NCBI RefSeq assembly: GCF_032051675.1
Contig: NZ_CP116968.1
Span: forward strand, 496,001 to 560,000
Source of the DNA: Candidatus Nitrospira neomarina
Lineage (GTDB): Bacteria > Nitrospirota > Nitrospiria > Nitrospirales > UBA8639
Direction of reading: 5' to 3'
DNA: 64,000 bases
The notes under the pieces were generated by a model. That model had not been told where the DNA came from, did no database searches, and was given only the letters and a program-made list of their open reading frames with translations. Shown one piece after another: positions 7,919 through 45,939 of this stretch (positions are counted from its first letter, which is position 1; each line of letters opens with the position of its first letter). Position numbers and translations under genes: made by a program.

Positions 7919-8779
7919 ATGGCAAGGCCAATTTGGAAAGGGCACATTACCTTTGGCCTTGTCACCATTCCTGTTGTCGTTCATTCAGCGGAAAAACAAT
8001 TTGACTTGCATTTCCGATTGTTGGATAGCCGGAATCATGCCAGGGTCCGGTATGAACGCGTGAACGAGGAGACGGGTGAAGAGGTTCCATGGCAGGACAT
8101 TGTGAAAGGGTTTGAATATGAAGAGGGTCGGTATGTTCTTTTAAATGATGCCGATTTCGAAAAAGTTGCCATTGAAGTGAATAAATCAGTTGAAATCGAA
8201 AATTTTGTTAACGGAAAGGATATCGGTTACGAATATTTTGATAAGCCCTATTATCTTGTTCCCGATAAAAAGGGTGAAAAAGTCTATGTGCTGTTACGGG
8301 AAGTGCTTCGGCGGAGTGGCAAAGTCGGGATTGCCAAAGTCGTTATCCGAACACGCCAGTATTTAGCCGCCCTTATTCCTCAAGGACATGTTCTGGTGCT
8401 GGAGCTTCTGCGATTTCATCAGGAAATCCGTAATGTGAAAGAATTGGATGTGCCTGAAGCGGGCGTGAAATCCTACAAAATTTCGGAAAAGGAATTGACG
8501 TTGGCCCAACAGTTGGTGGAATCCATGAGCACTAAGTGGGAACCCCAGCGCTACCAGGATGATTACCGTGATGCCTTGTTGAAATGGATCGAAAAGAAAT
8601 CGAAAAGTGCCCAGTCACGAACATCCATACCCCCTGTCGCAAAAGAAGAGAAAACAGGTTCAGGAAAAGTCGTTGATATCATGTCCTTATTAAAGAAAAG
8701 CGTTCAGAAGGCCCAACCCTCCGGTCGAGCCAAAAAACGCAAATCCTCCTCCCCTCGAAAATCCCGTAAGGCCAGTTAA
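7919..8779 (+). CDS. ku: Ku, DNA end-binding protein of NHEJ
   Basis: 286 residues; prokaryotic Ku forms a homodimeric ring on broken DNA ends and recruits LigD. The N-terminal signature ARPIWKGHITFGLVTIPV is exact for the family; the Ku core runs to about residue 225 (GYEYFDKPYYLVPDKKGEKVYVLL, GKVGIAKVVIRTRQYLAAL). The last 50 residues are a Lys/Arg/Ser-rich tail, as in many bacterial Ku proteins that bind DNA through this tail. It is 103 bases before ligD, the standard two-gene NHEJ arrangement. Codon use resembles its neighbours. Confidence 0.97.
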   Translation: MARPIWKGHITFGLVTIPVVVHSAEKQFDLHFRLLDSRNHARVRYERVNEETGEEVPWQDIVKGFEYEEGRYVLLNDADFEKVAIEVNKSVEIENFVNGKDIGYEYFDKPYYLVPDKKGEKVYVLLREVLRRSGKVGIAKVVIRTRQYLAALIPQGHVLVLELLRFHQEIRNVKELDVPEAGVKSYKISEKELTLAQQLVESMSTKWEPQRYQDDYRDALLKWIEKKSKSAQSRTSIPPVAKEEKTGSGKVVDIMSLLKKSVQKAQPSGRAKKRKSSSPRKSRKAS

Positions 8780-8882
8780 AGTTCCATTCACCGTGAATTG
8801 CCGGCCTGACTGAGCAGAAAGGTCTTTGTTTCAGTTTTTTCAGGACTCAGACCCTCAAAGCTGCTCGCAGGGTGTCACAAAC

Positions 8883-11507
8883 ATGGGATTAAAGGAATAT
8901 CAGGGTAAACGGCAATTTGGGAAAACCCCGGAACCTCGTGGGACGACCTCCCGGAATAAGGGGTCTTCGTTTGTTGTCCATAAGCATGCGGCAAGCCGGT
9001 TGCATTACGATTTCAGGCTTGAGCTGGACGGTGTGTTAAAAAGTTGGGCGGTTCCGAAAGGTCCCAGTTTAAATCCTTCCCTCAAGCGTCTGGCCGTTCA
9101 TGTTGAGGATCACCCCGTCGAATATGGATCCTTCGAAGGAACCATCCCCAAGGAAGAGTACGGAGGAGGGACGGTGATGGTGTGGGATCGTGGCCAATGG
9201 GTGCCACAGGAAAATCCGCGACACGCGTATGACCGGGGACGATTGAAATTTCAATTGCAAGGAAACAAGCTGAAGGGAGGATGGAGTTTGGTTCGGATGG
9301 GAGGAGCCAAAGCCAAGGATGAAAAAAACTGGTTATTGATCAAAGAAAAGGATAAGGAAGCCCTCCAAGGGACACAGCCCGATATCATTGACACGGCTCC
9401 CCGGAGTGTGGCCACCAAGCGAACATTGGAGGACATTGCCGTGGGGACTGAGGAAAACAGCAAAAAAAAACATCCTTCCCCAATGAAGTCAGGCAACAAA
9501 ACCGCCAAAAGTCGTTCCTCCCGCACCATCTCACGCAAGAAGACCACCGGACAATCCCGCGCCTTTGACCCATCCAAGCTTCCCTCCGCGGTGTCCGGGT
9601 CGCAACCGGCCACCTTTCGTCCTCAATTGGCAACACTGGTCAAGTCAGCTCCGACGGGAGACGATTGGCTTCATGAAATAAAATTTGATGGATACCGTCT
9701 TGTCAGTGTGGTGAAAGACGCCCGGATTCACCTGTTTACCCGGAACGGAAAGGACTGGACCAAGAAATTCCCTGGTATCGCAAACGCCTTGGCCCAATTG
9801 CCGGTGCGGCAGGCGATTCTAGATGGGGAATTGGTGGTCCTTCGTCCTGACGGAATTTCCGATTTCCAGGCTTTGCAAACTGTGCTGAAAGGGGAAACTT
9901 CCGATCCTCTTGTGTATTACGTGTTTGATCTTCCTTATTGCGAAGGGTATAACCTCTGCCGCACGCCCCTTCTCAAACGCAAGGGACTGCTATGGGAATT
10001 GATTAAGTGCCTGCCCGAGGCGGCCGCGTTTCATCTGCGATACAGCGACCACATCCAGGGTCAGGGAGAGCGGTCGTTCGAGCATGCCTGTCGAAAGGCT
10101 CTCGAGGGAATTATTTCCAAACATGCGATGAGCCCGTATCGTCAAACCCGCTCGAAGCAGTGGGTCAAGGTCAAATGCCATCACCGGCAGGAATTGGTCA
10201 TCGGTGGGTATACCAATCCTTCGGGTTCCAGAATGTTTTTTGGAGCTCTGCTGCTGGGATATTATGATCAGGAAGGCCAATTACAGTATGCCGGACGGGT
10301 GGGAACGGGGTTTACGCAACAACGCCTTGCACGCATTCATGCCCTCTTGTCCAAACGTCATCAAGCGAGTCCCCCCTTTTTCCGGTTACCCAACGACCGC
10401 GGGCTCAAAACGGCGCATTGGGTACGCCCGGAATTGGTGGCGGAAGTTGAATTTTTGGAATGGACACGGGAAGGCATTCTGCGCCATCCCTCTTTTCTCG
10501 GCCTGCGCGAGGACAAATCAGTCAGAGACATCAGAAAAGAAAGTCCGACACCCTTGAAAGAGATCGTTCCCAAACCTTCCACATCCTCACGCGGTCGTAA
10601 AACTTCCAGGCGGGGTCATTCCCATCCGCGGGTGGAAATGGCCCTCACGCATCCGGATAAGATTCTTTATCCCCAACAGGGCATTACCAAAGGGGATCTC
10701 GCAGAATTCTACCAACACATCGCGGATTGGGTGTTGCCGCATGTGGCGGGACGGCCGCTCACGCTGGTGCGCTGCCCGCAAGGACATCAGAAAAAATGTT
10801 TTTACCAAAAGCATGGCTCCGGGTCTTTGTCGGAAAGCATCAGAACAATTCTCATAGAAGAAAAGGGCAGCAAAGAGGATAATTCCTATTTAGTGATCGA
10901 TGATGTCCGGGGACTGATCGCGCTCGTGCAGATGGGGGTGCTGGAGATGCATCCATGGGGATGCCTGGAGGATCGAGTGGACCGGCCTGACCGGTTGGTG
11001 TTCGATCTGGATCCCGGACCCGGGGTCAAGTGGGAACAGTTGATCGAGGGGGCGGAACTCTTGCGCCGGAGACTGGAGGAGGATGGAATCGTCAGTTTTG
11101 TCAAAACGTCCGGGGGAAAGGGTTTGCACGTGGTGGCGCCCCTTGTCCGCCGGGCCAGCTGGGATGAGCTGAAACAGTATACCCGCAGGCTGGCGACAGA
11201 AACGGCAGAGCGACAGCCTTCCGCGTTTGTGGCCAATATGAGTAAGGCCAAGCGGAAGGGAAAAATTTTTATCGATTACCTCAGAAACGGATTCGGCTCA
11301 ACGTCCATCGCGACCTACGGCGTTCGTGCCTTGTCCGGAGCGCCTGTTTCGACTCCGATCAGCTGGAAGGAATTACCCTCCCTATCCGGGCCGCAGGCCT
11401 ATACGCTCAAGACGCTTCCGGATCGGCTGAATGCCCTCAAACGTGATCCCTGGGAAGAATTCTTTCAACTGCGTCAGTCCATTTCCCGGGCCGTGCTGAA
11501 TGCGTAG
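8883..11507 (+). CDS. ligD: LigD, multidomain NHEJ DNA ligase
   Basis: 874 residues with three domains. 3'-phosphoesterase about 25-180 (HYDFRLEL, HVEDHPVEYGSFEGTIP, EYGGGTV); a basic low-complexity linker about 190-235; ATP-dependent ligase about 245-560 with nucleotidyl-transfer motif EIKFDGYR near 264 and LDGELV; primase-polymerase about 588-860 with DKILYP, catalytic VFDLDPGPG and SGGKGLHVV. The order PE-LIG-POL differs from the mycobacterial POL-PE-LIG order but is common in other bacteria. Start 8883 (MGLKEYQGKR) matches homologues; the frame also opens at 8826. It repairs double-strand breaks together with Ku. Confidence 0.96.
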   Translation: MGLKEYQGKRQFGKTPEPRGTTSRNKGSSFVVHKHAASRLHYDFRLELDGVLKSWAVPKGPSLNPSLKRLAVHVEDHPVEYGSFEGTIPKEEYGGGTVMVWDRGQWVPQENPRHAYDRGRLKFQLQGNKLKGGWSLVRMGGAKAKDEKNWLLIKEKDKEALQGTQPDIIDTAPRSVATKRTLEDIAVGTEENSKKKHPSPMKSGNKTAKSRSSRTISRKKTTGQSRAFDPSKLPSAVSGSQPATFRPQLATLVKSAPTGDDWLHEIKFDGYRLVSVVKDARIHLFTRNGKDWTKKFPGIANALAQLPVRQAILDGELVVLRPDGISDFQALQTVLKGETSDPLVYYVFDLPYCEGYNLCRTPLLKRKGLLWELIKCLPEAAAFHLRYSDHIQGQGERSFEHACRKALEGIISKHAMSPYRQTRSKQWVKVKCHHRQELVIGGYTNPSGSRMFFGALLLGYYDQEGQLQYAGRVGTGFTQQRLARIHALLSKRHQASPPFFRLPNDRGLKTAHWVRPELVAEVEFLEWTREGILRHPSFLGLREDKSVRDIRKESPTPLKEIVPKPSTSSRGRKTSRRGHSHPRVEMALTHPDKILYPQQGITKGDLAEFYQHIADWVLPHVAGRPLTLVRCPQGHQKKCFYQKHGSGSLSESIRTILIEEKGSKEDNSYLVIDDVRGLIALVQMGVLEMHPWGCLEDRVDRPDRLVFDLDPGPGVKWEQLIEGAELLRRRLEEDGIVSFVKTSGGKGLHVVAPLVRRASWDELKQYTRRLATETAERQPSAFVANMSKAKRKGKIFIDYLRNGFGSTSIATYGVRALSGAPVSTPISWKELPSLSGPQAYTLKTLPDRLNALKRDPWEEFFQLRQSISRAVLNA

Positions 11508-23484: not shown

Positions 23485-24633
23485 TTAATAACGAAAAATA
23501 GCGGACAACGAGGTACTGTCTGGCATCTCTTTCTGGGAGAGGGCATAAACCGTGCCTTTTTTAAGTAACGTCTGCACCACCGCAAAATCTAAGATTTCCA
23601 CTGATTCGGCGGACTTTGTCGGTTTTGTTTCCACTCGGTTTTGCATGACGTCGATACGACCCCATTGTTGAATGTCCCGGGCGACGAATAGTGTATCGAT
23701 TTTTCCCTCATGGGCTGCCAGAACCACGGTTTTCAGATCATGGGAAGCTTTGGACGTACCCAAAAACTCTTCACACTTGTTCTTGGCCTCTTCTATGCCG
23801 TGATCGGCATCTGCTTTCACGACCGGCCAGACTTGCCGGTGCAATTCATGAAGGCTTTTTTCATCAGCATTGCCTGTGACCCCTTCTTCCATAGTATGAG
23901 GGTAGGTATTGACGTCTTTGTAAATCGGAATCAAATATTCCACGCCCGTCAGATATAACGGTGCCTGCGCTTCGTGCAGGAACTCGTGAAGACCTTTTGC
24001 CACCTGATGAAAAAATTGGGAAATGCGGGATTTCGCTTCGTCATCCCCACCGCCCTGTCCATGAAACATGGCGGCCCGCTGGTCGCCTGCATTGGGGGCT
24101 TTGGTATGCCATTGCAAGGATTGCTCGCCGCCGGCCGTTTGATTGGCTTCCTCCATACTGAGGGGAATATCTGGTATGCGCAATTCCTGCAGGCCATCCT
24201 GTGAACCCTGAAAGAAACGGATATGGTTCTGACTGAGCGCGAGAAGATAAAACGTTCCTCCATACATGAACACGGGCAGGATGGGTTTCAGATAAAACCG
24301 GGATTCTACCATCGTGAGTTCGGGAAGACTGAGAGGCAGACGAAAGACCCGATGCCAATCCTTCGCGACGTACATGGCCAGCCCCTGATCCTGATACCGC
24401 CAGAATTGCTCATCCTCCAGGAGTTTCGAGAGAGGTTCCAGCCAGGTTCGAGCGTCTGCGCTCCTGATGCCCTGTTCCGTCAATTGCTGTTCCGTCTCTT
24501 TGAGAAGGTTTTTCAAGCGTATCGGGTCCTGTCGGATTTCCTGTCCTGCGGGATGGGTCGGCATGTATAAGGACACGCAGGGACTTTCCTTCTGTTCAAG
24601 GAGATCCTCTAGATCATTTCTTGTAATTGACAT
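23485..24633 (-). CDS. baeRF family 7-like protein (release-factor-like fold)
   Basis: 382 residues, cytosolic. Starts ITRNDLEDLLEQKESPCVSL then YMPTHPAGQEIRQDPIRLKN, the standard N-terminus of bacterial archaeo-eukaryotic release factor 1-like proteins, family 7. Further markers: FWRYQDQGLAMYVAKD, GGTFYLLALSQNHIRFFQGS, and a C-terminal DTLFVARDIQQWG. The baeRF families were proposed from sequence analysis to act on ribosomes or in stress translation; there is little direct evidence. Start follows AAAGGATC. Stand-alone gene, about 190 bases downstream of the AsmA gene on the same strand. Confidence 0.8.
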   Translation of the reverse strand: MSITRNDLEDLLEQKESPCVSLYMPTHPAGQEIRQDPIRLKNLLKETEQQLTEQGIRSADARTWLEPLSKLLEDEQFWRYQDQGLAMYVAKDWHRVFRLPLSLPELTMVESRFYLKPILPVFMYGGTFYLLALSQNHIRFFQGSQDGLQELRIPDIPLSMEEANQTAGGEQSLQWHTKAPNAGDQRAAMFHGQGGGDDEAKSRISQFFHQVAKGLHEFLHEAQAPLYLTGVEYLIPIYKDVNTYPHTMEEGVTGNADEKSLHELHRQVWPVVKADADHGIEEAKNKCEEFLGTSKASHDLKTVVLAAHEGKIDTLFVARDIQQWGRIDVMQNRVETKPTKSAESVEILDFAVVQTLLKKGTVYALSQKEMPDSTSLSAIFRY

Positions 24634-31671: not shown

Positions 31672-33432
31672 TTAAGTAGATATAGGGGCAGGAGGAGCGG
31701 ATGGGGAAGGAGAAGAAGTAGGGTGAGGAAAAAGGACATACCGGGATTCAATGGCGGCTTTGATGCGAGCCAGACTTTGCCCATGTTCCAGCGATTCAGT
31801 GGATTCTATTTCCCGAATTTCGGCGCCCAGCGTTTTATCTTTAATACATTCGTGAGCCCAGGAAGAATAATCATGCCGCTTCAAATGATACATCCACGTT
31901 TCAGGATCCAGTCCTTCTGCCAGTTGAAGAAAAAGCATAAGATTTTGGGCGCGAAGGTTCAGCTTTCCTTCCGGACCTTGAAAGTAAAAACTGCGATCCG
32001 GTCCTAATTCTCCTTCCGCATACTTCCGACGATGACGCCTTCGTTCGCTCCTATTGGGATGTATCCGGAATCGAATCGGCAGAGCCCCTCCGTACCGTTT
32101 CCAGAATATCGCCTCCCCCGGTTGGACGTGATGATCCTCGAAGGAAGGCAGAGATTCCCCCACCGAATTGGTGAAAGCCTCCAATCGTTCGCCTGGAGAT
32201 TTGCCGATCACCACGACACAATCAATAGCGGTAAGGGCGTCGGCAGCCATTTGATCGGGGTGTACGGTGATCATCAGCAGGGAATGTAGTGATGGGGTGA
32301 GCAAGGGGCAAGAGATATCCCATTCTGCCGGCATCAGATGATGAGTCTCATCCAGTACAATCCAGTGAGGGCGGCCCGTTCGTGCTCTGAAATCCTGAAG
32401 ATCTTTAAAGATGTTGTTAAAAAAAGAAGGACGTTCTTGTATCGCCAGACCCACCAGATTGATGACCAGGTTCGTATCCGGGTTTTCCAGAATAGTGATG
32501 ACCTCCTTTGAGTTGGGTGCGTGATTCACATCACCCAGGACCACAGACTGTTCTAACGATTCATAATCGCCTTCTGGATCGATAATACAACATTGATACT
32601 GTTTATCCGTGAGACGCTCAATGATGCCGGTTGAGAGCGTGGATTTTCCGCTTCCCGATGAGCCGGCCAGGAGAAGGTTCGGACCATAGGGACTGATTCG
32701 GACTTCCTGCTCCGTCTCTGTGGATCCCAGCACGACATAATGCCGGTGAAGGGACGGATCAATGGATTGTAAGTCGTCAGCCAGAAGATGCCGGATAAAC
32801 TCCACGACCCCGTCTCCTTGCTCTCCTTCCATCACGATATCGGCGCGTTCCTTGATGGCCGGGAGGGCATTGCCGACGGCCGCGGAGCACTCCACCATTC
32901 CCAGAAAAGGGAGATCATTCTCGGCATCGCCAATTCCGGCGACATTGTGTGGTGATAGACCCATTTTGCGTAGCGCTTTCTCCAGTCCGGTCGCTTTACT
33001 GAATCCGGCGGGAAGCATCATGACGGCTTCTTTGTTAAAAATCAGTTGGATATCCAATCCGAGATCACGGACCACTTCCAATACGGCCGTTTCATGCGGG
33101 CGAACGGTGGAGACGATATTTCGTCCGACTGAAATGGGAATACCGCGGGAACGAAGCCGCATAATGAAATCTTCAGACGGCATATCCGCCAGGGTGATCG
33201 TTTCCTTGGAAGAAGGTTTGTACAATAAAAGCCCATTCTCCGCGACAATCCACTCAAATACATGAGGATGAGGAAATACTTTCAGTAGATCATCCAGTTC
33301 CCGGCCTGTGACCAGAAGGAGCTTTCGATTGGTGGTTAAGACTTTTTCCAGACCTCGAAGGGTCGATTCGTTGACACGCCCATGAAGGGCAAGAGTGCCG
33401 TCGTAATCGGTAGCCAGCGCTAAATATCTCAT
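31672..33432 (-). CDS. HAD-IIB phosphatase fused to HerA-like ATPase
   Basis: 586 residues. Residues 1-235 are a Cof-type HAD hydrolase: motif I ATDYDGTLALHGRV, LLLVTGRELDDLLKVFPH, and motif IV GIGDAENDLPFLGM. Residues about 250-480 are a HerA/VirB4-like P-loop ATPase: Walker A LLLAGSSGSGKSTL near 257, CIIDPEGDYE, Walker B HWIVLDETHHLMP. The last 100 residues are basic then helical (ERRRHRRKYAEGELGPDRSF). Start 33432 (MRYLALATDYDG) is chosen since the HAD domain begins there. A sugar-phosphate or nucleotide phosphatase controlled by an ATPase is possible; substrate unknown. Confidence 0.85.
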   Translation of the reverse strand: MRYLALATDYDGTLALHGRVNESTLRGLEKVLTTNRKLLLVTGRELDDLLKVFPHPHVFEWIVAENGLLLYKPSSKETITLADMPSEDFIMRLRSRGIPISVGRNIVSTVRPHETAVLEVVRDLGLDIQLIFNKEAVMMLPAGFSKATGLEKALRKMGLSPHNVAGIGDAENDLPFLGMVECSAAVGNALPAIKERADIVMEGEQGDGVVEFIRHLLADDLQSIDPSLHRHYVVLGSTETEQEVRISPYGPNLLLAGSSGSGKSTLSTGIIERLTDKQYQCCIIDPEGDYESLEQSVVLGDVNHAPNSKEVITILENPDTNLVINLVGLAIQERPSFFNNIFKDLQDFRARTGRPHWIVLDETHHLMPAEWDISCPLLTPSLHSLLMITVHPDQMAADALTAIDCVVVIGKSPGERLEAFTNSVGESLPSFEDHHVQPGEAIFWKRYGGALPIRFRIHPNRSERRRHRRKYAEGELGPDRSFYFQGPEGKLNLRAQNLMLFLQLAEGLDPETWMYHLKRHDYSSWAHECIKDKTLGAEIREIESTESLEHGQSLARIKAAIESRYVLFPHPTSSPSPSAPPAPIST

Positions 33433-33607: not shown

Positions 33608-35734
33608 TTATGAAGCCGCGGTGCGGTCCCAGAATCGGAGATGACGGCACATTTCCAGGAATTTGGAGGTGCCTTTATTTCCGTCAAGAGCGATCATTCC
33701 CCCGTCCATATCTGTCAGCCCTGCCTTTGTAAAGAGGGGCGTCGCGGCTTCGACATATCCGATAAATTTCATATGCGCAAAGGCATCTGCCACAAAATCC
33801 CTCGCCGTCGGCTCTTTGGCTAAAGCCTGGCCTCCTTCCTCGGAAAGGAGGAGGGCTACTGCGTCATACAGAACAGAGGGGCCGCCATCGATTTTCTGGG
33901 CGGCTTCAATCCATGTCCCGTCGCTGGCTTCTACTCCGCCGACGCCGGGGGCCACAATCTCCATAATCGCCCCTTCCGATTTGACGGCGGCTTTGAGAGA
34001 TTTAAATAATTTCATATCGACTCCGTCGGTGATGAGCACTCCAAGCTTTCGCCCTTTGAAGGTCTTGGGACTATTAAGAAGAATGCTGAGCGCCGGTGAC
34101 CGTTGGAGATCCTCTTGGGTGGGTTTCGCCGCATCTGCGGGCGCGGGCATCTGCTGGATGCGCAATCCTTTGGCGACCGTTTTGGCCAGATCCTGGTGGA
34201 TATTCAGTAAATGAGAAACCATACGAGTTCGTATCTCAAGACGTTCCACTTTGCTTAATTCAAAGACTAAGGCGTTCGCGATGTGTGTTTGTTCGACCTC
34301 GGTCTGACTGGTGTAGAATTGTCGAGCCTGGCTGTAATGATCGGCAAAGGTCTCGGAGCGAAGGCGGACTTTTGGGCCTTGGTCCTCTGCAGGATAAGAC
34401 GTGAATCCTTTTTCCGGTGATTCACGGGGACCGCCAGTTTCGCCGGGCCAGGAATTGGGTTCATAGTTGGCTCGGCCTTGCGGATTCTGCATGGCCATAT
34501 GCCCGTCCTGTTGAAAATGGCTGAACGGACACTTGGGGGCGTTTATGGGTATGTGAGTGAAATTCGGACTGCCAAGCCGTTTGAGCTGAGTATCGAGGTA
34601 GGAAAAGTTCCGCCCTTGTAATAGCGGGTCATTTGAAAAATCAATGCCCGGTACAATATTTTGCGTACAGAAGGCGACCTGTTCGGTCTCAGCAAAGAAA
34701 TTGTTCACACAGCGATCAAGAACGAGCCGGCCCACGCGTCGAATTGGTAGAATTTCTTCTGGAATGAGTTTGGTGGCATCGAGCACATCAAAATCGAATT
34801 CTTCAGCAAATTCATCATCAAATAGCTGAAGGCCCAGTTCCCATTCCGGATAATCACCCTGCTGAATGGCACTCCATAAATCCCGGCGATGGAAGTCCGG
34901 GTCAGCTCCGTTAATTTTAACGGCTTCGTTCCACACCACGGACTGCATCCCCAATTTTGGTTTCCAGTGAAATTTTACGAACGTTGATTTTCCCTGACCA
35001 TTGATAAGCCGGAATGTGTGCACGCCAAACCCTTCCATGAATCGAAAGGAGCGGGGAATGGCTCTGTCGGACATAATCCACATCACCATGTGCATACTTT
35101 CGGGGGTCAGAGAGATAAAGTCCCAAAAGTTATCATGCGCGGTTTGCGCCTGGGGGAAACCACGATCCGGTTCGGCTTTGGCCGCGTGAACGAGGTCTGG
35201 AAATTTCATAGCGTCTTGTATGAAAAACACCGGCATATTGTTGCCCACAAGATCCCAGTTCCCCTCTTTGGTATACAGCTTCACGGCGAATCCCCGGACG
35301 TCTCTTGCCAAATCGAAAGAACCCTTATTGCCGGCTACGGTGGAAAAGCGGACGAACGCAGGAGTTTTATCACGTGGTCGTTGAAAGAGGTCGGCTCTGG
35401 TTACATCTGCCAGAGATTCGTAGTTTTCAAAATACCCATGAGCTCCAAACCCGCGGGCATGCACGACCCGTTCCGGAATCCGTTCATGGTCAAAGTGGAA
35501 AATCTTTTCCCGAAAGTGAAAGTCTTCCAATGCGCTTGGACCCCGCGGTCCGACTTTAAGCGAGTTTTGGTCATCTGCGACAGGAATGCCCTGCTGAGTT
35601 GTTAATACCGGATTGGTTTTTCCGCTTGTCTGGTGCACTTCCCCTCCAGTGCCGATGTTGACAGTTTGGTCAGCATATTTTGCGGTTTTACCGGTGGAGG
35701 CAGGAGAAGATTTAGTGGGTTGTTTTTTGGCCAT
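33608..35734 (-). CDS. katE: monofunctional catalase, large-subunit clade 2 (KatE/HPII)
   Basis: 708 residues, the length of clade 2 catalases, which carry an extra C-terminal flavodoxin/DJ-1-like domain. The catalytic His is in [15 protein letters not shown], the Asn region is [15 protein letters not shown], and the haem-ligand Tyr is in [13 protein letters not shown]. The C-terminal domain runs from about 560 ([20 protein letters not shown]) to the end. Breaks H2O2 into water and oxygen in the cytosol. AAGGAG lies at correct distance before ATG. Divergent from ahpC, so the two main peroxide scavengers share a control region. Confidence 0.96.
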
Positions 35735-42064: not shown

Positions 42065-43654
42065 TTATGATTGAAGTTTCAGAATGAGGCCTTCGTCCCC
42101 ACGAACCTCAAAAGGCGCATGGAACCTCTCCTGGTTTTTGTCTAAAAAAGTGGAAAGGCATATCTGGGGGGCCCACGTCTGATCCCATTTTAATGTCTGC
42201 GGTGTGCTGCTAAAGTTCAACAGGATCATATAATTTTCTTCGTTTCCCACTCTCTGATACGCCAAGAGAGGCCCCTGGACTGCGATAATCTCGAGCCGAC
42301 CCGTGGTAAGGGTGGAGCGTTCGCGACGAAGTGCAAAAAGTCGGCGATATAATGTCAGGAGTGAAGTCGGATTATCACGTTGTGAGGCGACATTGGCGGT
42401 GTGAAAATCCTCGGCAATCGGCAACCACGGTTCATGGGTAGAAAACCCGGCATGGTGATCGGTATTCCATTGCATCGGCGTTCGTTCCGGGTCGCGGTTG
42501 CGACCCGTGCGGCGGCCCTGCGGATCGACGGCATGTTCACCGGGAATGGGGACTCCCTTCATGCCGATTTCCTCTCCATAATAATGCACCGGTGTTCCCA
42601 GTAACGTCAGCAGCAGCATGGCCGCCACACGCCTTTGTTCTCCCTGGAGTCGCATCGCCAATCTCAGGCAGTCATGCGTACTGATTATCCAGGAAGGCCA
42701 TCCGCCCGTGGGCACCTGTGCGAGATACTCTCCGATGGAACGACATAGTTTGTCGGCAGTCCAGGACGTCCAGGCCAATTGCATGTGAAAGGGCAGATGC
42801 AGTTCGGGTTTTTCGCCTCCGTAATAGGTCACGACCTTTTCCACCGGCAGGTACAGCTCGCCCGCCACCATCCGGTCGCCGCCGAACTCATCTGCCACGG
42901 CCCGGATGGACGCGACCACCTCGTGAATCCCCGGCTGATCCCGCGTGTGGTGTGGGAGCAATTGACTATCCGGCCCCTGACCTTCCTGAAAATCCGGATT
43001 GGGAGGGTTATCCCGAAATTGTTCGTCTTTGATTAACAGGTCGAGGGCGTCGATGCGAAAACCATCCACTCCCTTGTTCAACCAGAACCGAAGCGTCTCG
43101 AACATTGCCGCGCGGACATCAGGGTTGCGCCAGTTCAGGTCCGGCTGTTTGCTGAGAAAGGTGTGGAGATAATATTGGTCAGTGTGGTCGTCCCACTCCC
43201 ACACGCTTCCGCCGAAGACACTAATCCAATTGTTCGGTGGTGAACGATCGGATTTGGCATCACGCCAGATGTACCAGTCACGCTTGGCATGGTCTCGGTT
43301 TGATCGGGATTCGAGAAACCACGGATGTTCGTCGGAGGTATGATTGGGCACCCAATCCAGTATGACTTTCAGATCATGCTGATGCGCCTGGTCGACCAGT
43401 TTTTCAAAATCGCCGAGTGTCCCGAAGGCTGGTCCAATATTCACATAGTCGGAGATATCATATCCCAGATCGGCCATCGGGGAGGGGTAGACCGGGGATA
43501 ACCAGAGGGCGCTCACACCCAGCCACTGAAGATAATCCAGCCGTTGGATCACTCCCTGAAGATCGCCGTATCCGTCGCCGTTGCTATCGGAAAAGGACGG
43601 CACGAGAAGCTGATAAATGATGGCGTCCTGCCACCAGTGGAGAGGGTCTGCCAT
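42065..43654 (-). CDS. GH13 alpha-glucosidase/alpha-amylase family enzyme
   Basis: 529 residues. GH13 motifs: GVSALWLSPVYPSPMADLGY, ILDWVPNHTSDEHPWF, nucleophile GVDGFRIDALDLLIKDEQF (Asp near 200), acid/base VAGELYLP, and THDCLRLAM for the third acid (usually NHD, here THD). QPDLNWRNPDVR is typical of oligo-1,6-glucosidase/alpha-glucosidase subfamilies. No signal peptide, so cytosolic. Start 43654 because GAGGAAA lies 7 bases upstream. Divergent from the debranching enzyme; together they would degrade glycogen or maltodextrin. Confidence 0.92.
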   Translation of the reverse strand: MADPLHWWQDAIIYQLLVPSFSDSNGDGYGDLQGVIQRLDYLQWLGVSALWLSPVYPSPMADLGYDISDYVNIGPAFGTLGDFEKLVDQAHQHDLKVILDWVPNHTSDEHPWFLESRSNRDHAKRDWYIWRDAKSDRSPPNNWISVFGGSVWEWDDHTDQYYLHTFLSKQPDLNWRNPDVRAAMFETLRFWLNKGVDGFRIDALDLLIKDEQFRDNPPNPDFQEGQGPDSQLLPHHTRDQPGIHEVVASIRAVADEFGGDRMVAGELYLPVEKVVTYYGGEKPELHLPFHMQLAWTSWTADKLCRSIGEYLAQVPTGGWPSWIISTHDCLRLAMRLQGEQRRVAAMLLLTLLGTPVHYYGEEIGMKGVPIPGEHAVDPQGRRTGRNRDPERTPMQWNTDHHAGFSTHEPWLPIAEDFHTANVASQRDNPTSLLTLYRRLFALRRERSTLTTGRLEIIAVQGPLLAYQRVGNEENYMILLNFSSTPQTLKWDQTWAPQICLSTFLDKNQERFHAPFEVRGDEGLILKLQS

Positions 43655-43866: not shown

Positions 43867-45939
43867 ATGTTTGACGGGAAACTTGCTATGCATCCCATTG
43901 TTCGACAGCTGACACGTGCTCAATTACATGAGGACGGACAGGATATCTTACTCTCCCGGGAATGGCTGGTGACCAATGGGTTGGGCGGCTATGCCTCCGG
44001 CACCGTCGCCGGCGTGGCCACGCGGCGATATCATGGCGGGTTGATTGCGGCGTTGCCTGCGCCGCTTGGAAGACAAATGACTTTGTCGCATCTGTCGGAA
44101 CGTGTACGTCTTGGGGATAAAAGCGTCATTAAATTGAGCGGGGAGACGCAAACGCCTGGGGACAGCCATGTGTACGGCATTAATTATCTCACCGAATTCC
44201 GATTGGAGATGGGATTGCCGGTCTGGCGCTATGAATTGTCCGGTGCGACGATCGAAAAGCAAGTGCTCATGCCTCATCAGCAAAACACCGTCTACATCAT
44301 CTATCGACTGCTTCAAGGAGATCCCGTCAGGTTGAAACTCATGCCGTCGGTCCACAACCGGTCACACGACTCGTCGGTGAGTACACCGCTCCCCGGAACC
44401 TTTAGGTTGTCGGAATTCGAATCACGGTTTGAACTGTCGGTCCTGCCGGATCTTCCGACCATCCGGATGTCTCTGGATGGTGCGCGCCAGGCATTTACCG
44501 TTAATCGTCAGACGTTACCGGAGGTGATGTATCCGGTGGAAGAGAGTCGTGGGTATGAGGAAATCGGGACATTATGGAGCCCCGGATATTTCAGAGCGGA
44601 TCTTTCACAGGATCGCTCTGTATGCCTGGTAGCATCGACCGAATCCTGGGACATCGTTGCCGCCTTGCCGGCCGAGGAGGCTCTAAGGTTGGAATATGAG
44701 CGGCGGGCTCGGGCATTGGCCGCAGCACACCCGTCGGCGCGGGACGGACTCGGTGCGGAGCTGGTGTTGGCCGCGGATCAATTTATTATTAAACCTGTCG
44801 GTCGCACTGAAGATACCGCCCGGGTCAGAGCCGGCGGCGATGAAATGCGAACGATCATCGCCGGTTATCATTGGTTTACGGATTGGGGTCGCGACACCAT
44901 GATCAGTCTGGAAGGTCTGACACTCACAACCGGCCGTCAGGCAGACACCGGCTATACCTTACGGCTGTTTGCCCATTATCTCCGGGACGGACTGTTGCCG
45001 AACCTCTTTCCCGAAGGTGGGAAAGAAGGTCTCTATCATACCGCTGACGGCACATTGTGGTTCTTCCATGCGATCGAGCGATATGTACAGGCCACGGGAG
45101 ACCTGGTGACGCTTGACATTCTCCTGCCTCATCTTCTGAATATCGTGGAGCATCATGTACGGGGAACGCGTTTCGGCATCGGCGTCGATCCGCAGGATGG
45201 TCTGCTGCGACAGGGAGAAGATGGATATCAACTCACATGGATGGATGCCAAAGTTGACGATTGGGTGGTGACGCCGCGCCGGGGGAAAGCCGTTGAAATC
45301 AATGCCCTTTGGTATAACGCCCTCTGTCTGCTCGCTGACTGGCTTCGACAACGGAACAACCCGGATGACGCCGGGAAATGGGAACGGTTTGCGGAACAGG
45401 CGCGGATCTCCTTCAACCGGCGGTTCTGGTATAAAGGCGGAGGGTATCTCTTCGATGTGGTTGACGGTGAGCAGGGCGATGACAGCGCCTGCCGGCCCAA
45501 TCAATTACTGGCGATTTCCCTGACCCATCCGATTCTCGATTCGTCATATTGGTCCTCCGTGGTCGAGGTGGTGGAGAAGCGTCTGGTGACGCCTGTCGGT
45601 CTCCGGTCGCTTTCCCCGGATCATGCCGACTATAACGCCAAATATGATGGAAATCTGCGCGCGCGCGATGCCGCCTATCACCAGGGGACGGTGTGGGCCT
45701 GGCTGATCGGTCCTTTCATCGATGCCTGGATGAAAGTGCATCCTGATAATCCGGCAGGGGCGCGCCGGTTCCTCTCCGGATTTGAACGACACTTGAATGA
45801 AGGCTGCATCGGCAGCATCAGCGAAATTTTTGATGCTGAAGCGCCCTTTACCCCCCGCGGTTGTATTGCGCAAGCCTGGAGCGTGGCGGAAGTGTTGCGC
45901 TGTTGGGTCAAAACCACTCCCGTGGTTCGTGACGCATAG
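43867..45939 (+). CDS. glycogen debranching enzyme (amylo-alpha-1,6-glucosidase, GH133-like)
   Basis: 690 residues. N-terminal GDE domain about 20-240 (REWLVTNGLGGYASGTVAGV, TRRYHGGLIAA), C-terminal catalytic (alpha/alpha) barrel about 290-680 with the family motif IAGYHWFTDWGRDTMISLEG near 335, EINALWYNALCLLADW and YHQGTVWAWLIGPFIDAW. Archaeal/bacterial GDE hydrolyses alpha-1,6 branches of glycogen. Cytosolic. Pairs with the divergent GH13 gene (213 bases between). No glycogen synthase is in the window. Confidence 0.93.
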   Translation: MFDGKLAMHPIVRQLTRAQLHEDGQDILLSREWLVTNGLGGYASGTVAGVATRRYHGGLIAALPAPLGRQMTLSHLSERVRLGDKSVIKLSGETQTPGDSHVYGINYLTEFRLEMGLPVWRYELSGATIEKQVLMPHQQNTVYIIYRLLQGDPVRLKLMPSVHNRSHDSSVSTPLPGTFRLSEFESRFELSVLPDLPTIRMSLDGARQAFTVNRQTLPEVMYPVEESRGYEEIGTLWSPGYFRADLSQDRSVCLVASTESWDIVAALPAEEALRLEYERRARALAAAHPSARDGLGAELVLAADQFIIKPVGRTEDTARVRAGGDEMRTIIAGYHWFTDWGRDTMISLEGLTLTTGRQADTGYTLRLFAHYLRDGLLPNLFPEGGKEGLYHTADGTLWFFHAIERYVQATGDLVTLDILLPHLLNIVEHHVRGTRFGIGVDPQDGLLRQGEDGYQLTWMDAKVDDWVVTPRRGKAVEINALWYNALCLLADWLRQRNNPDDAGKWERFAEQARISFNRRFWYKGGGYLFDVVDGEQGDDSACRPNQLLAISLTHPILDSSYWSSVVEVVEKRLVTPVGLRSLSPDHADYNAKYDGNLRARDAAYHQGTVWAWLIGPFIDAWMKVHPDNPAGARRFLSGFERHLNEGCIGSISEIFDAEAPFTPRGCIAQAWSVAEVLRCWVKTTPVVRDA

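Follow-up and report, generated by a model that had tools for sequence, protein, structure and literature searches.

The known work of HerA-class motors is the movement of DNA, both in repair and in defence. The functional roles of the HAD catalytic motifs and of the Walker motifs are established, and the substrate specificity of HAD-IIB phosphatases is poorly predictable from their fold. Canonical HerA proteins have an N-terminal HAS beta-barrel and a four-helix bundle beside the RecA core, and in DUF4297-HerA the Walker A lysine and the Walker B acid lie 269 residues apart (K157 to E426), with R455/K456 serving as the trans R-finger (PMC11291478). The non-canonical HAD protein Saci_0016 dephosphorylates trehalose-6-phosphate (PMC7688234). 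In Thermoproteus tenax, the trehalose synthase/phosphatase of the msc-gt-tpsp operon is activated by complex formation, and the operon also encodes an MscS-type channel (PMC3634074).

The gene described here (31672..33432, minus strand) encodes 586 aa comprising a HAD domain, a HerA core and half of an OrfY/DUF5752 repeat. It was found in a window of 64,000 nucleotides, positions 496001-560000 of the single 4.8 Mb contig that forms the host genome. The HerA systems and the fusion are alike in coupling an effector enzyme to an ATPase. However, the effector of the fusion is in cis at the N terminus and belongs to the phosphatases, where the HerA systems have a nuclease or NADase, and the chain is without a HAS barrel, without an RK trans-finger pair and has a far shorter distance between Walker A and Walker B. 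The idea of an effector on HerA is already known, and what we file as new is the phosphatase in cis together with the reduced core. No paper describing the three-part fusion was found among the open-licence titles and abstract openings listed, nor was an open-licence paper found that names DUF5752 or deals with OrfY of Thermoproteus.

One reading frame and three modules

The minus strand from 31672 to 33432 forms a single ATG-started frame, while the plus-strand reading contains stops. The sequence-only reading had given exactly these coordinates for a Cof-type HAD phosphatase fused to a HerA-like ATPase. The HAD-IIB phosphatase domain occupies residues 1-223 (32764..33432, minus strand; motifs D9xD11, T42, K146 and D169/D173) and the HerA-class ATPase core occupies residues 229-465 (32038..32748, minus strand; Walker A at 257-264, DPEGDY at 285-290 and Walker B at D361/E362). 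The fusion was thus correctly recognized, but a third conserved module near residues 466-567 had been overlooked; this helical module, residues 466-566 (31735..32037, minus strand), is followed by a Pro/Ser tail of low confidence (residues 567-586, 31675..31734, minus strand, with pLDDT below 50 at 568-586). An AF2 model of the chain as a monomer, made for the window protein with 72 rows, had a pLDDT of 90.6 and a pTM of 0.81. The VIA-align listing for this full-chain model held 50 rows, mostly matches to the HAD part, and such listings leave room for other folds.

The sequence-only reading had itself raised the possibility of a frame artefact, with homologues that are always two separate genes. 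Both were ruled out, as the whole chain was found in one frame in 96 of 102 fetched loci, distributed over ten phylum-level groups. In eight of the 96 the match continued beyond a stop, which was placed in the tail because the ORFs of these loci measured 569-621 aa. The six partial loci comprised four cut by contig ends, one broken and one clean HAD-only gene. In the broken locus (L013, G017:C533) the HAD part runs into a stop and no more than a C-terminal piece follows downstream. The HAD-only gene (L024:8001-8666), on a Nostoc plasmid, has 55% identity; no other of the 102 loci holds a clean gene for the HAD part alone.

Conservation was counted in an alignment (A2) of 79 rows, 76 from the main family and three from a second subfamily. 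Gene calls in the fetched loci came from a longest-ORF picker, which failed to report the fusion frame at 11/103 loci; ten of these were entered into A2 by their match coordinates and one (L101) was left out. The catalytic motifs of both enzymes were intact, as had been claimed: D9, D11, K146, D169 and D173 of the HAD part and G257, G262, K263, D285, P286, G288 and E362 of the ATPase were present in 79/79 rows. T42 was present in 77/79 rows, with S in the other two, and D361 in 77/79.

The modules compared with described proteins

The HAD part of the window protein matched Pfam Hydrolase_3 (1.9e-23) and passed the NCBIfam cut-off for HAD-IIB (TIGR01484, 66.6 against 41.8). The narrower label Cof-type did not hold, since TIGR00099 scored 83.2 against a curated cut-off of 137 and the wider HAD-IIB cut-off alone was passed. 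By VIA-align, residues 1-223 matched PH1421 with a Z of 27.1 (221 residues, 2.4 Å), mannosyl-3-phosphoglycerate phosphatase with 21.0, OtsB (trehalose-6-phosphate) with 20.2 and SPP (sucrose-6-phosphate) with 19.6. PH1421/TA0175, MpgP, OtsB and SPP share the fold and catalytic motifs of this domain, but the fusion falls below the listed equivalog cut-offs and also contains the HerA core and the OrfY-type module.

The best NCBIfam E-value for the HAD part (6.6e-25) came from TIGR01487, the archaeal phosphoglycolate phosphatase equivalog. Together with PH1421 as best fold and the oxidative-stress genes for catalase and AhpC in the window, this would suit a role in metabolite repair: under oxidative stress a phosphoglycolate or general phosphatase would remove a toxic by-product, with the HerA-type module as no more than an oligomerisation platform. 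However, the TIGR01487 score of 88.2 lies below the cut-off of 122.75, fold is a poor guide to HAD-IIB specificity and the relationship of the third module is to the trehalose/OrfY family, and we consider metabolite repair rather unlikely.

The assignment of the ATPase to a HerA-like class was borne out. The DUF87/HerA central domain PF01935 scored 35.3 bits against a cut-off of 23.2 (E 1.7e-8) and the best structural matches of residues 229-465 were HerA proteins, namely HerA of HerA-NurA (Z 21.6, 225 residues, 2.7 Å), SsoHerA (21.0), DUF4297-HerA (20.9) and SIR2-HerA (19.5), with DndH also at 19.5. Structure 8xav is taken by us, from its title and PMC11291478, to be DUF4297-HerA. The RecA-like core fold (Z 19.5-21.6) and Walker A/B are therefore common to the fusion and to NurA-HerA, SIR2-HerA and DUF4297-HerA.

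The core departs from canonical HerA on the features tested. The HAS barrel is absent; its place at the N terminus is taken by the HAD domain, and the model has just two short strands between this domain and the P-loop strand. The Walker A lysine is separated from the first Walker B acid by 98 residues (K263-D361) as against 269 in DUF4297-HerA, and a 233-residue span of the fusion model aligned with 348 residues in 4d2i, so the four-helix bundle has apparently been lost. R455/K456 of DUF4297-HerA was confirmed by a separate alignment to be the RK of GRKYG. When the fusion profile was aligned to 8wiv (E 0.028), this pair had no counterpart in the fusion, and the SQRP that follows it read TVHP. 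Position 391, the Arg of the HerA QRP, was His in 65/79 rows and Arg in three, which are the second subfamily. Of the 76 main-family rows, one had an adjacent basic pair in the finger loop, and in 43 the loop contained R or K at one position or more. Five core positions were at least 85% basic (R230, K263, R334, R349 and R354), R334 being present in 76/76 main-family rows, and another R-finger, such as R334, is possible. We infer that the core behaves as an ATP-binding ring ATPase.

The absence of the finger pair and the replacement of the QRP arginine by His in 65/79 rows would also suit an ATPase that is dead or a purely structural remnant, with the phosphatase alone at work. The constancy of K263, G262 and E362 in every row and of D361 in all but two argues for retained nucleotide binding and hydrolysis, and a dead ATPase is accordingly regarded as very doubtful.

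The third module was identified as half of the OrfY/DUF5752 repeat. Residues 466-566 gave a DUF5752 match below threshold in three of six relatives scanned; the best member, from the second subfamily, reached 20.4 against the curated PF19027 cut-off of 23, and the host's own genome gave no match. In profile comparison, hhalign of the module against seven DUF5752 proteins returned a probability of 96.5 (E 9.8e-10; E 1.4e-7 for the whole chain). The module profile found OrfY of T. tenax (PDB 4cso) in two stretches with an HMM E-value of 6.7e-9, and the DUF5752 profile matched OrfY at 2.5e-40. Modelled alone (467-567), the module had a pLDDT of 92.7 and aligned with 4cso by VIA with a Z of 11.3 over 95 residues (2.1 Å), the next entry scoring 5.0. 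The Foldseek E-value against 4cso was weak (0.91), and a Z below about 13 for a helical model may reflect a common arrangement only, so the assignment to OrfY is carried by the sequence results. Each half of OrfY/DUF5752 (PF19027; 4cso) aligns with the third module, but the fusion has one half-repeat only, C-terminally fused and below the PF19027 cut-off.

The module occurred 13 times in 12 fusion-carrying genomes, always in frames of 569-694 aa. Among 117 genomes from the phylum of the Anabaenopsis genome, five matched it: the centre genome's own fusion, a short broken fragment and three longer proteins, each measuring about 980-1010 aa. Two proteins from this phylum of about 1010 aa (L154 and L155) appeared by eye to combine receiver-like, DUF5752-like and PEP-synthase-like parts.

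In the host phylum, nine loci encoding DUF5752 proteins were inspected. HMM-confirmed genes for TreT, GT20-TPP, separate TPP, MscS, GH13, GH77 and G6PDH were found at 5/9, such trehalose, alpha-glucan or MscS genes were recognized by eye at three more and none was seen at the last (L124). The gene company of the T. tenax msc-gt-tpsp operon is like that of these loci, but the accessible portion of its description mentions no HerA-type ATPase and does not name OrfY (PMC3634074). At one locus (L121:6977-8368) DUF5752 is fused to an MscS-type channel and adjoins a trehalose-6-phosphate phosphatase gene, which offers a lead to DUF5752 function.

Distribution and genomic surroundings

The fusion forms a family of single polypeptides with three modules that occurs sporadically in many phyla and without a constant gene partner. 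Among 59 genomes, the host included, 11 relatives matched over about 520 or more residues and three were partial, two at contig ends (G004 and G040) and one interrupted (G017); two further genomes (G024 and G028) held distant HAD-only matches of 33% identity and the remaining matches were weak and to HAD. In plasmid records, 11 of the 15 matched covered at least 80% of the query. Among the best 80 of 360 confirmed relatives on genome contigs, 79 reached residue 565 or further and are part of the 96 whole-chain loci, and one (L053) was cut by a contig end; the closest named relatives in this set were Nitrospirales MAGs with 68-69% identity. Seven annotated full-length plasmid homologues were named only as HAD-IIB family hydrolase, HAD hydrolase family protein or HAD family hydrolase.

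A quick tree of the 79 rows, with ten labelled groups, placed the eight labelled cyanobacterial rows on one branch (99*). Five changes were needed for Planctomycetota and seven for Pseudomonadota, and transfer is therefore likely, though not proven. The second subfamily (L142, L143 and L144, corresponding to L015-L017) is separated by a deep split at 28-29% identity, has the same three modules and carries YRP in place of the usual VHP of the main family. One of its copies (L144) is flanked by hypF and hypC, which belong to a hydrogenase set.

In the window a large katE-like catalase gene (33608..35734, minus strand) lies upstream of the fusion across a gap of 175 bp; it is context and not a shown functional part. 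The remark that the fusion stands next to katE applies to the window, and adjacency was seen at 11/103 loci in all, many of the 103 having short flanks; the named ones among the 11 belong to Nitrospirota and the others to near kin of the host. Because adjacency is limited in this way, katE was rejected as a functional partner. In Paraburkholderia the fusion has a manganese catalase gene at a distance of about 4 kb, but this catalase is from a different family. Also present in the window, as context only, are genes for a GH13 alpha-amylase-family enzyme (42065..43654, minus strand) and an archaeal-type debranching enzyme, amylo-alpha-1,6-glucosidase (43867..45939, plus strand).

The sequence-only reading had proposed a search for the fusion and its neighbours across genomes; the fusion recurred and a constant gene partner did not. 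In a Pfam scan of 138 of 167 neighbouring proteins, which omitted those of plasmid loci and a number of ORFs that were long, short or cut, the commonest families reached 3/138 each among the 25 of 171 families listed. A same-strand ORF was present within 80 bp upstream at 16/97 loci, including a peptidase, a sigma-54 activator and oxidoreductases. When nine of these 16 and one further neighbour were scanned, no family was common outside two Chloroflexi contigs (L083 and L084), which share a pyridine nucleotide-disulphide oxidoreductase, and three of the nine gave no Pfam match; a conserved operon partner was therefore rejected. Suggestive single cases were noted in Caballeronia (a GT4 gene ending 15 bp upstream of the fusion), Aminobacter (trehalose-6-phosphate synthase and debranching enzyme nearby) and Synechococcus (Dps, a BON protein and hemerythrin nearby).

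The stress-gene region of the window also contains the bacterial end-joining set Ku and LigD (7919-11507) and a baeRF-type (archaeo-eukaryotic release-factor-like) protein (23485-24633). Ku and LigD, a Ku-like cluster seen by eye at four other loci, the HerA fold (Z 21.6) and the labelling of OrfY as a transcription factor in PDB entry 4cso are compatible with a DNA-linked enzyme, that is, a true HerA-type translocase whose HAD domain would act as an end-phosphatase on DNA ends under damage. However, Ku and LigD lie 20 kb off within the window and do not regularly accompany the fusion, and the HAD fold is closest to small-molecule and sugar phosphatases. The lack of a HAS barrel and of the known trans R-finger pair, and the apparent loss of the helix bundle, also make DNA pumping unlikely. 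Overall, we judge a DNA-linked enzyme quite unlikely.

The earlier suggestion of a stress enzyme or defence component fared differently in its two parts: a stress enzyme fits the family of the third module and the setting, whereas a defence component was not supported. An anti-phage effector would pair a ring ATPase with a phosphatase, and infection would set the latter to use up a nucleotide or sugar phosphate; there is a known defence system in which a HerA ring activates its partner effector (PMC11291478). Occurrence is sporadic and includes plasmids, and similarity to mad8 of the MADS system extends over the ATPase in 79/79 rows (E 1.8e-11 for the window protein). Against this, a pattern-based scan of IMG/VR yielded 34 pattern matches of which none passed tblastn, no neighbour family among those listed exceeded 3/138 and the PADLOC matches were mostly to generic ATPase models (HerA and mad8). 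On these IMG/VR, neighbour and PADLOC results a defence role was rejected as highly improbable.

A candidate ATP-gated phosphatase

Our preferred reading, held tentatively and at somewhat less than even chances, is that the fusion is a phosphatase for sugar phosphates with a role in stress, which a HerA-type ring that binds ATP would both carry and gate, with an OrfY regulatory or docking module, and is not a DNA pump. The substrate of the HAD module would be a sugar phosphate, or a small molecule close to one, from stress or compatible-solute/alpha-glucan metabolism. Through the HerA-type core the chains would assemble into a ring, probably hexameric, and the ATP state of this ring would gate the phosphatase; the fused phosphatase would then take the place held by NurA, SIR2 or DUF4297 on separate HerA rings. 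The OrfY-type module, which trehalose gene clusters also have, may serve in regulation or in the docking of a partner.

Saci_0016 offers a partial parallel, as a HAD-superfamily sugar phosphatase non-homologous to characterised TPPs and assigned to a proposed salt-stress pathway, but it is an archaeal single protein of 27 kDa (PMC7688234), and the likeness drawn here is one of description. The host genome gave no GT20 and no Trehalose_PPase match, so the canonical OtsA product trehalose-6-phosphate is an unlikely substrate in this host and another phosphate ester is likelier.

Several observations count against the preferred reading. There is no conserved neighbour, and TPP was not commoner in carriers of the fusion (3/15, the host and partial and second-subfamily copies included) than in other genomes (18/44; counts compared by hand). 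The HAD part is nearest to archaeal phosphoglycolate phosphatase, which would also allow 2-phosphoglycolate, and one second-subfamily copy, between hypF and hypC, is not in a sugar context. The transcription-factor label of OrfY would allow a role on DNA, and the R or K in 43/76 finger loops and the invariant R334 make another finger possible.

A bolder reading is a 'metabolic HerA', in which the ring has left DNA and serves as the ATP-gated chassis of a sugar phosphatase, tied through OrfY to osmotic or desiccation stress. This is somewhat unlikely as it stands. If true, it would mean that the coupling of effectors to HerA exists outside DNA repair and defence. A widespread reduced HerA core joined to a phosphatase would be an example of such a ring put to use as an ATP-controlled scaffold for metabolism, and DUF5752, a family of unknown function in Pfam, gains a likely context in trehalose and osmotic stress together with another architecture.
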